IMG/VR virus record: IMGVR_UViG_3300034109_000192
Location: 1-32,285 of that record
Length of the DNA stretch: 32,285 nt
DNA from: a virus
Direction: 5' to 3' (one strand)
Shown here: piece by piece, positions 4,363-29,039 of the stretch
How positions within the stretch are numbered: position 1 is the first letter of the stretch
Layout: every line of letters starts with the position of its first letter
The notes under the pieces: generated by a model
Databases searched by the model: none
Seen by the model: only the letters and a program-made list of their open reading frames with translations
What the model was told of the DNA's origin: nothing
Made by a program: the position numbers and the translations under genes

Positions 4363-5604
4363 TTACCCTTCCTGCTGCTCTTCGTCGCCAGTGCGACGAG
4401 ACATGTCCCGACCGGTGATAGACCCGAACAAGTCTCCAATATTACCAACGCTACTGTCGCGGCGGTTTGCTCGGTTTGTATACATATTTCCAAGCATAGT
4501 CGATTCACTGATGCTGCTCGGGGCCGAACTCGGCATCAGTTGGAGGCCAACCTGAAGCGCCCCACGACGCCCGCTAACACCCTCGCCATATCCGATATCG
4601 TAGGCAGTGCCGACGTTGCGTGCCGTACCAAGCCGATAGCGCCGCTGCTCCGCAGCCAAACGCGTACCAGTAAGTCCACGGGTGCCTTCGCGTTCAGCCT
4701 GCACACCAGCCAGTCGGGCACGACGAGCCGACTGCAACCCGAAGTACTCGGGGTCAAAGTACTTGGCGCTACCCAGCATATCCTGTGCAGCCTGCAAGCG
4801 CTGATTGAACAGCCCCATGTTAGTTGTACGCAGTTGCTCAAGTTCGGCCCGCTGCTGAGCCAGCAAGGATTCCTCTTCCGCCGAGAGCCCGCTGCCGGCG
4901 ATGTACGAACCGGCAATCTGCCCAGCCGCCCGAAGTGTAAAATCTGCCATTTTCTCCGGGGTAAGTCGTTTGGCTACGGCCTGCCCGAGGTCTGAGGATT
5001 TCATCCGCTGCCAGAGTCCGGGAGACTCCGTAGCCGCCGGAGACGCAGTGGTAGTAGCGCCCTGCGTGGGTTGATTTCCCTGAGTTGCTGCTGCGTCGGA
5101 CAACCCAGCGGTCACGGCCGCTTTAGTTCCTTCCCAAGAGGCATTGGAGCCAACGCTAGTACCACGAGAAGCCTGCACAACCGCTTCTTCTAACGGTACG
5201 GACAGCCCGGCACTGGTAGCGCCAGCGGTAGTTCCGACAGTTGTGGCAGCAGTAGCGGGAGCCGCTACCCCAGCGGCGGGGGCACCTGTAGCACCGACGC
5301 GGGCAACCTCTACGGGAGCATTTCCGGCAGCAGTTCGCGCAGCCGCAAGTTGAGAAGCCTGCGTGTACCCACCGATACCGCCAGAGATAGCACCCGCAAT
5401 AGCCGCTTTTCCTACGTCCCCACCTGTTGCGGCAGCGATTGCCGCGTTACCTGCGGCGTTGACTGCTGCGGACGTAACGGTCATGGCCGCGACCGACCCT
5501 GCCGCTGCTGTGCCTTTAAGTAGCGCTCCGGCGACCGCCGGGGCAAAGTACGCAACCGCGATAGCAGCCGCGACGGTGAGAATCTTTTTTACAGACTTGC
5601 TCAT
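4363..5604 (-). CDS. Internal virion protein, Ala/Gly-rich
   Basis: The protein has 413 residues. The first 100 are hydrophobic and small-residue rich, with a strong hydrophobic segment at about 8-30 preceded by lysines. A linker of Ala, Thr, Gly and Val follows, then a Gln/Arg/Leu-rich helical region (about 215-330) and a charged C-terminus ending EEQQEG. The composition resembles podoviral core or ejection proteins that insert into the envelope. The start is ATG 5604, 7 bp after the acetyltransferase-like gene, and the next gene begins 3 bp after the stop. No enzymatic motif is seen; the role is inferred from position and composition. Confidence 0.7.
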   Translation of the reverse strand: MSKSVKKILTVAAAIAVAYFAPAVAGALLKGTAAAGSVAAMTVTSAAVNAAGNAAIAAATGGDVGKAAIAGAISGGIGGYTQASQLAAARTAAGNAPVEVARVGATGAPAAGVAAPATAATTVGTTAGATSAGLSVPLEEAVVQASRGTSVGSNASWEGTKAAVTAGLSDAAATQGNQPTQGATTTASPAATESPGLWQRMKSSDLGQAVAKRLTPEKMADFTLRAAGQIAGSYIAGSGLSAEEESLLAQQRAELEQLRTTNMGLFNQRLQAAQDMLGSAKYFDPEYFGLQSARRARLAGVQAEREGTRGLTGTRLAAEQRRYRLGTARNVGTAYDIGYGEGVSGRRGALQVGLQLMPSSAPSSISESTMLGNMYTNRANRRDSSVGNIGDLFGSITGRDMSRRTGDEEQQEG

Positions 5605-23368: not shown

Positions 23369-23407
23369 CCCCCGGGATAAAAAACCCCCGGGGAGTTAAC
23401 CCGGGGG
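23369..23407 (-). terminator. Intrinsic terminator after large terminase
   Basis: In the minus RNA the arm at 23407-23400 (CCCCCGGG) pairs with 23393-23385, with a 6-7 nt loop, followed by T6 (23384-23379). A third G-rich arm at 23376-23369 could compete for pairing with the second arm, so an alternative fold is possible. It lies 44 bp past the terminase stop. Confidence 0.85.
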
Positions 23408-23450
23408 AAGGGGGTGAAGAACCCCATGGAGGTGACGAGTGGCGATAGTA

Positions 23451-27030: not shown

Positions 27031-27038
27031 CTTTACAG

Positions 27039-27068
27039 CCCCGGGTTAACAGCCCGGGGTTTCTTTTT
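27039..27068 (+). terminator. Intrinsic terminator of first early unit
   Basis: The stem CCCCGGG (27039-27045) pairs with CCCGGGG (27053-27059), loop TTAACAG, followed by TTTCTTTTT. It resembles the minus-strand terminator after the large terminase, which shares CCCCGGGTTAAC. Confidence 0.9.
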
Positions 27069-27248
27069 GTCATGTCTTAAACCTAACACTCACCGGGGCT
27101 CTTTCTTACTCCCATACGTCGGGGGGTCCTCGCTTGCCTGACAATCCGCGCGTATTATACTTAATGGCTTAGCATACATGACACAATCTAAATGCCTCGG
27201 CAACAATCTATCCGAAACTTGACGCGAAATTTGAAATTTACCTCGTCT

Positions 27249-27264
27249 ACTTTACATGTAAAGT
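27249..27264. repeat. 16-bp perfect palindrome, copy 1
   Basis: ACTTTACATGTAAAGT is self-complementary and is repeated exactly at 27381-27396. It is preceded by TGAAATTT-type sequence in both copies. It is a likely dimeric repressor or activator site. The copy here overlaps the 18-nt element that recurs inverted at 25919-25935. Confidence 0.85.
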
Positions 27265-27316
27265 TTTGTAAGTGCTTGATTTGCCACAAGTAACCAGCAA
27301 GTACTGAAGAAGAGTG

Positions 27317-27339
27317 ATATAAATAATATAAATAATATA
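27317..27339. repeat. A/T tandem repeat, possible unwinding element
   Basis: The 9-mer ATATAAATA occurs twice, with a third partial copy ATATA. It lies between the two palindromes in the most AT-rich part of the region, as expected for an easily melted element. Confidence 0.7.
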
Positions 27340-27380
27340 CTGTTTTTGTGTATACCCTTTTAGCGATTTTTGAAATTTCG

Positions 27381-27396
27381 ACTTTACATGTAAAGT
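27381..27396. repeat. 16-bp perfect palindrome, copy 2
   Basis: It is identical to the palindrome at 27249-27264 and 132 bp away from it, flanked by a different downstream sequence. Confidence 0.85.
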
Positions 27397-28553: not shown

Positions 28554-28706
28554 ATGGAACCCTACGACATCAAGGTCATGCTGACCAACAACGGATTCTG
28601 GTACACCTACTGGTACTTGACTGGGCACAGGTACTGCGTGAGGAAGTACGCCCTCTGGCTGATGTGGGTGGCGTACTGGGCTAAGTGGCCCGACCACGCT
28701 CCCTGA
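28554..28706 (+). CDS. 50-residue aromatic-rich protein upstream of ribozyme
   Basis: The protein starts MEPYDIKVMLTNNGFWYTYW, with SD GGGAG 5 nt upstream, and is very rich in Trp and Tyr (ALWLMWVAYWAKW). The C-terminal half could be membrane-associated. Its stop is 5 nt before the hammerhead ribozyme, so cleavage would leave this coding region at the 3' end of the upstream RNA piece. The family is not recognised. Confidence 0.65.
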   Translation: MEPYDIKVMLTNNGFWYTYWYLTGHRYCVRKYALWLMWVAYWAKWPDHAP

Positions 28707-28710
28707 TACA

Positions 28711-28760
28711 GGTCGAAACGCCGAGAGGCGTAGTGGCGTGATGCGCCACCTGATGAGACC
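28711..28760 (+). ncRNA. Type II hammerhead ribozyme
   Basis: All core parts are present in type II order. Stem II 5' strand GGUC is at 28711-28714 and GAAA at 28715-28718. Stem III CGCC/GGCG is at 28719-28722 and 28727-28730 with GNRA loop GAGA. U28731 pairs with the last A of GAAA and the cleavage-site nucleotide is A28732. Stem I GUGGCG/CGCCAC (28733-28738, 28744-28749) has loop UGAUG. CUGAUGA is at 28750-28756 and the stem II 3' strand GACC at 28757-28760 pairs with GGUC. Cleavage is predicted after A28732. Stem II is only 4 bp. It lies between the 50-residue gene (stop 28706) and the gene at 28788. Confidence 0.93.
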
Positions 28761-28787
28761 ATTCTACAACATACGGAGATACGAAGT

Positions 28788-29039
28788 ATGGCTGAGGTCA
28801 ACAAGGCGAAGAAGAACCAGTCCACCCACAACAAGGGCAAGTACACGGCTCAGTACGGCATCACTTGGAACAACAAGCGTCGTGCCATCACCAAGCACCT
28901 GACGGCTCTCAAGGCCGCTCTGGTCAACGCCACCACGGAATCGGGAGTTCTGTGGGAGCGCAAGACTCGGAACATCACCGCTGCCATCGCTGCGGCGGAG
29001 GCGGCTCTCAAGTCCCTGCCGCTCAAGAAGGGGGGCTGA
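28788..29039 (+). CDS. Small basic early protein downstream of ribozyme
   Basis: The protein has 83 residues. It is Lys/Asn/Thr-rich at the N-terminus (AEVNKAKKNQSTHNKGKY) with an Ala/Leu-rich helix later (KHLTALKAALVNATTESG, ITAAIAAAEAALKSLPLKKG). The SD is GGAG about 10 nt upstream. After ribozyme cleavage this gene would be near the new 5' end, whose first nucleotides form the stable stem I hairpin. The family is not recognised. Confidence 0.7.
   Translation: MAEVNKAKKNQSTHNKGKYTAQYGITWNNKRRAITKHLTALKAALVNATTESGVLWERKTRNITAAIAAAEAALKSLPLKKGG

Follow-up and report, generated by a model that had tools for sequence, protein, structure and literature searches.

Locus and element

The window, meaning the whole 32,285-base IMG/VR virus record that was analysed, comes from an uncultured phage. 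Its leftward genes encode a portal/head-tail adaptor, the large terminase, the major head protein and an internal virion protein, a structural gene set on the basis of which the phage was taken to be podovirus-like; the closest annotated terminases are less than 47% identical. Host assignment from matches to the terminase gene (terL) in genomes was rejected, as these fell in two unrelated MAGs, an actinobacterium and Paraglaciecola. Just after terL, at 23377-23438 (-) and at L002:119-180 (-) in a related contig, a weak sub-threshold Rfam resemblance to anti-hemB was found that is probably a conserved terminator-like hairpin. A series of small rightward genes, mostly of unknown function, starts at about 27.7 kb. 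A strong terminator-like hairpin at 27037-27061 (+), followed at 27134-27394 by a region rich in promoter-like sites (8, as against 1.8 expected over the scanned stretch), likely marks the start of the rightward unit. From gene order alone, the unit diverging from the leftward structural genes, it is plausible that the transcript is an early one.

Features of the locus:
28554-28706, +, upstream small gene of 50 aa (MEPYDIKV...), an open reading frame with translation, stop codon at 28704-28706
28710, +, A28710, directly 5' of stem II, predicted partner in a tertiary A-U Hoogsteen contact
28711-28714, +, stem II strand 1 GGUC, 4 bp with 28757-28760; pair 2 is G-C, and A-U in L001-L003
28715-28718, +, core GAAA (G12 A13 A14 A15.1), invariant in alignment A1
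28719-28730, +, stem III hairpin CGCC-GAGA-GGCG, 4 bp, extended to 28731 by the closing pair A28718-U28731
28732, +, H17 (A28732) by motif position; predicted cleavage between 28732 and 28733
28733-28749, +, stem I hairpin GUGGCG-UGAUG-CGCCAC, 17 nt; pair 4 is G-C, and C-G in L001-L003
28750-28756, +, core CUGAUGA, invariant in relatives
28757-28760, +, stem II strand 2 GACC, paired with 28711-28714
28770-28790, +, leader hairpin CAUAC-[GGAGAUACGAA]-GUAUG, with the Shine-Dalgarno sequence GGAG (28775-28778) in its loop and the start codon in its 3' arm
28788-29039, +, downstream gene of 83 aa (MAEVNKAKK...), without a known family; homologs in L001-L003, L129 and L130
30886-31362, pyrimidine dimer glycosylase (PF03013) in the rightward gene series

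Read base by base, 28711-28760 (+) forms a complete type II hammerhead with three perfect stems. The CUGANGA pattern is present as CUGAUGA, together with GAAA and the UH site U28731 A28732, and the core-adjacent pairs 10.1-11.1 (G-C), 1.1-2.1 (G-C) and A15.1-U16.1 (A-U) are intact. Loops close stems I and III while stem II is open, which is the type II permutation. Stem I pairs GUGGCG (28733-28738) with CGCCAC (28744-28749) over 6 bp around loop I (UGAUG, 28739-28743), in which U28739 occupies position 1.7 and a U28739-G28743 wobble is possible. A complete type II hammerhead with stems I, II and III of 6, 4 and 4 bp had been claimed in a sequence-only reading of this DNA, and all the bases named in it, including the cleavage site predicted from the motif after A28732, were confirmed. 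The same holds for its location between two small rightward genes (28554-28706 and 28788-29039): the element lies inside an 81-nt gap, 4 nt after the upstream gene and 27 nt before the downstream one, with both flanking frames on the same strand. The functional element should take in A28710 besides 28711-28760.

Two phage hammerhead forms and a predicted A-U contact

A lax script that accepted all three hammerhead permutations was run over the window and matched the element only; the same rule gave 39 matches in 8732 simulated windows, roughly 0.0045 per window. A covariance model was built from 31 phage hammerheads, none of them from the window or its relatives; it scored the element at 64.8 bits (E ~7e-21) and the hammerheads of the related contigs L001-L003 at 68.7-69.1 bits. 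The next-best match in the window reached only 12.5 bits, so that the element is a single copy in a record that may be incomplete.

A wider sample was obtained by a degenerate pattern scan of IMG/VR that returned at least 120 stretches and, having some stem bases fixed by the pattern, is a sample rather than a census. The fetched loci contained, among the matches listed, 151 distinct, fully paired type II hammerheads in which stem II length and stem I size were tightly linked: 74 of the 151 combined a stem II of 4 bp or more with a stem I hairpin no longer than 18 nt, 64 combined a stem II not exceeding 3 bp with a longer stem I hairpin, and 13 were mixed. The first form, to which the window belongs, is here named subclass A. 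The published pseudoknot, in which loop I pairs with the tail, was found with at least four Watson-Crick pairs in 43 of 63 hammerheads of the pseudoknot type (shuffled mean 14), and in 7 of 66 of subclass A, where it showed no excess over the shuffled-tail mean of 5.2, both among the matches listed. Such a pseudoknot is common in type II hammerheads but not universal, and is no requirement for membership. It was rejected for the window, as the tail AUUCUACAA holds no complement of loop I; L002 and L003 could form four loop I-tail pairs, in a subclass without excess of these among the matches listed.

A different contact is suggested by the bases of subclass A. The base 5' of stem II was A and position 1.7 was U in the same 62 of 66 members among the matches listed, and the other four (L024, L027, L056 and L080) had A at 1.7 and U or C at the -1 base, as well as U as the first tail base, which other subclass A members listed do not have there. 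In L027, L056 and L080 the A and U of the two positions are swapped. The association between the -1 base and 1.7 (Fisher p 1.4e-6 among the matches listed) is indicative only on account of shared ancestry; neither position served in hit selection. The tertiary contacts solved for the full-length hammerheads of sTRSV and Schistosoma share a single pair, in which an A at the stem II end is Hoogsteen-paired with the U next to residue 1.6 (PMC2553840). The bases required of a full-length hammerhead with this contact are both present in the window, namely A28710 at the outer stem II end and U28739 beside residue 1.6. In the solved structures, of types III and I, the A sits in a closed stem II loop (in sTRSV it is the last A of the tetraloop), whereas A28710 is an unpaired base 5' of the open stem II of a type II hammerhead. 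By this analogy we infer an A28710-U28739 tertiary contact, with which the ribozyme would have the requirements for fast cleavage at low magnesium.

No hammerhead was reported by Rfam in the window, at the gathering threshold or at E up to 5 or 10. The family RF02276 (Hammerhead_II) has core and permutation in common with the window, but its model does not match it; the element, like most members of subclass A, falls below the gathering threshold of 37 bits. In 29 scanned sequences RF02276, at its gathering score, recovered 23 of the 31 hammerheads of the pseudoknot type but only 4 of the 39 in subclass A, overlooking 35. The lack of an Rfam match therefore does not count against the window element, and the standard RNA-family library misses a large hammerhead subclass. 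We give even credence to a joint reading in which phage type II hammerheads would come in two architectures, one with stem II of at most 3 bp and a loop I-tail pseudoknot, the other with a 4-bp stem II, a 17-nt stem I hairpin and a single A-U contact from loop I to the 5' base. The second would occur in many phages, be about as common as the first in the sample (among the matches listed), be nearly invisible to Rfam and act as a standard intercistronic cutter.

Intact, half-deleted and absent copies in relatives

The relatives L001-L003 were found by searching IMG/VR with the downstream protein, which is 44-68% identical in them. The hammerhead directly precedes the homolog of the downstream gene in L002 and L003; in L001 a 104-aa gene, unrelated to the downstream gene, intervenes. 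The genes upstream of these hammerheads are not homologous to that of the window, homologs of which were found only in L125, L129, L130 and L133. Gaps that MAFFT had misplaced in the tail and in stem III kept RNAalifold from recovering stem II in the four-sequence alignment A2, and pairs were therefore compared by script. Between the window and L001-L003, pair 2 of stem II changes from G-C to A-U and pair 4 of stem I from G-C to C-G, stem III gains one pair and a new loop, and H17 changes from A to C, while all core and loop I bases are unchanged and no pair is broken. The sequence-only reading had proposed covariance in related phages as a check, and stem pairing is indeed kept in the three contigs, with a compensatory change in stem I and another in stem II. 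With three distinct sequences in the comparison the covariation is modest, but it is what selection on the fold predicts. Fully paired cells (100%) in alignment A1 stem from hit selection and were not counted as evidence.

Chance alone would not be expected to place the element before homologous genes of three further contigs. A chance hammerhead-like sequence or an inactive relic would fit the less common A at H17 (6 of 66 subclass A hammerheads among the matches listed) and the lack of an Rfam report; it is very improbable in view of the E-value of the model, the covariation in relatives, the presence of the tertiary-contact bases and the share of subclass A that Rfam overlooks. The local fold has a z-score of -2.83 and its minimum free energy structure is the hammerhead pairing. 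In a 170-nt context the hammerhead fold lies 3.5 kcal/mol above the minimum (4.8-5.4 in relatives) in secondary structure energy, in which tertiary contacts are not counted. Cleavage may thus be incomplete, or may depend on co-transcriptional folding and ribosome traffic. Stem II also has a competitor in the hairpin CCUG-AUA-CAGG (28702-28712). The window ribozyme is real and very probably functional.

In L129 and L130, whose terL is 86% identical to that of the window, the leader hairpin and the downstream gene are retained but only the 3' half of the hammerhead, GCGGCACCUGAUGAGACC, is present (L129:1319-1369 (-) and L130:6690-6740 (-)), joined at its loop I end to the stop codon of another gene. 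By its sequence this copy is a natural, presumably cleavage-dead version, and with the intact ribozyme of the window and L001-L003 it makes a natural pair before the same gene. About 25 terL-linked contigs reach at least 4.7 kb upstream of terL, and in those besides L129 and L130 (~23) nothing matched the model. Half-loss and absence together indicate that the ribozyme is accessory and dispensable in some lineages, and any benefit would be conditional. Distant blastn searches of annotated phages with the region and with the ribozyme alone gave no match. The L002 query matched only Streptomyces phages (E = 8, 21 nt, the first part of the ribozyme), which was discarded as chance level.

The ribozyme is followed by the leader pattern CAUAC-GGAG-NNNN-GAA-GUAUG. 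It is exact in the window and, base for base, in four other contigs (L001:4585-4605 and 4983-5003, L002:4822-4842, L003:4500-4520 and L125:775-795 (-)), with a U-G wobble variant in L129 and L130. The leader precedes three different genes and is duplicated in L001 around the inserted 104-aa gene; it may serve translation, or may be a recombination joint that these loci share. It is possible, though doubtful, that the ribozyme cleaves but matters mainly to the downstream gene, as its 5' leader module, setting with the leader hairpin a defined 5' end and tuning translation of the MAEVNKAKK protein, the upstream gene being irrelevant. This would explain why ribozyme, leader and downstream gene stay linked as upstream genes vary (window, L002/L003, L129/L130) and why the leader is so well kept. 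However, in L001 the ribozyme and leader precede the unrelated 104-aa gene and the downstream gene carries its own leader without a ribozyme, the leader pairing lacks a compensatory double change, the start codon constrains its 3' arm, and the hairpin is stable by only -2.4 kcal/mol. A pairing after cleavage of stem II GACC (28757-28760) with GGUC at 28796-28799 (codons 3-4), which would enclose the leader, was seen in the fold; it is not put forward here, as L001 does not have the sequence.

Position between genes and predicted use

The 151 hammerheads among the matches listed follow a strong positional rule. Their 5' end lies at a median of 1 nt past the stop codon of an upstream same-strand gene and their 3' end at a median of 23 nt ahead of a start codon with a Shine-Dalgarno-like motif. 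Within these matches, 87% lie no more than 40 nt from the upstream stop, as compared to 25% of random sites and 26% on the opposite strand, and 85% no more than 60 nt from a start preceded by such a motif (random sites 30%, opposite strand 10%); none of the multi-copy contigs listed mixes strands. The genomic setting had been thought new in the sequence-only reading. This did not hold, as the same-strand position between genes is typical of the matches listed and type II hammerheads in phage intergenic positions were reported in 2011 (PMC3088659). In that study, Perreault et al. described type II hammerheads, hammerheads that border single prophage genes or short gene blocks, and intergenic phage examples (PaP3, Bcep176), observed cleavage in vitro and in vivo for some as well as cleavage of natural phage-type polycistronic transcripts, and already proposed intercistronic processing. 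Those hammerheads share with the window the open stem II, the core and the intergenic place in transcripts; the emphasis there is on clusters, whereas the window holds a single copy without the loop I-tail pseudoknot. The window ribozyme is thus a solid further example of a kind and setting known since 2011. Added here are the predicted A-U contact, the poor coverage of subclass A by Rfam, the rule of position and the natural pair of intact and broken copies. The field has yet to establish what hammerheads do in prokaryotes (PMC6155905).

We consider it highly probable, on the strength of the sequence comparisons, that the element is a full-length non-pseudoknot type II hammerhead with an A28710-U28739 contact, used for intercistronic self-cutting of phage mRNA. 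The ribozyme would be part of a polycistronic mRNA and would cleave itself after A28732 during RNA synthesis. Of the earlier proposal that the mRNA is split between two small genes, the sense-strand position fits, and cleavage itself is a prediction. The stem III hairpin, carrying a 2',3'-cyclic phosphate, would form the 3' end of the upstream message. The stem I hairpin, with a 5'-OH, would open the downstream message, which covers the 83-aa gene onward; next would come the leader hairpin, in which the Shine-Dalgarno site lies. Hairpin ends slow mRNA decay in general bacterial mRNA turnover. The likely use would be intercistronic processing, whereby the two cistrons are uncoupled and the hairpin at each new end may slow decay; a role in stability or stoichiometry is hypothesized, and an effect on expression would follow from cleavage.

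Intercistronic processing fits the gap position of the 151 hammerheads among the matches listed and the copies in Streptomyces phage Celia (L211, MN062705.1, 34000-50493), reached through the chance-level match of the L002 query. Celia, a cultured phage in which the role is testable, holds at least 10 type II hammerheads in gaps of the leftward unit (genes 58-78), absent from the feature table of the record. By the covariance model many phages hold 5-24 copies, all on the coding strand and in gene gaps (24 matches in the L035 record, G004, and 11 in the L013 record, G003, all on one strand in each contig). The window, with its single copy, is not such an array, which is a point against this explanation.

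The element could instead be a passenger, neutral or under weak selection, that is tolerated at gene boundaries, where cleavage between cistrons would do little harm, and is maintained mainly by horizontal exchange. It is patchy in the clade, the downstream gene is intact in L129 and L130 despite the half-deletion, and similar ribozymes occur in L104 and L212, which have no tblastx match to the window. The L104 hammerhead lies between genes and does not differ from that of the window in stem II, in the stem III hairpin or in loop I, but it has another stem I and C at H17, and its contig shows no detectable gene homology. We regard this explanation as unlikely, since selection on the fold is indicated by the compensatory changes between the window and L001-L003, in which the core and the tertiary-contact bases stay the same, and since the copies in many phages keep to the coding strand in gene gaps.

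Two further contigs are of note. The L212 hammerhead (L212:379-426 (-)), in a contig without homology to the window, is a near-exact match in stem I and loop I to the phage group of the window, but an additional U separates its core from stem II; exchange or convergence is suggested. At L079:10002-10065 (-) a type-P5 twister ribozyme (RF02684) was found on the same contig and strand as three type II hammerheads.
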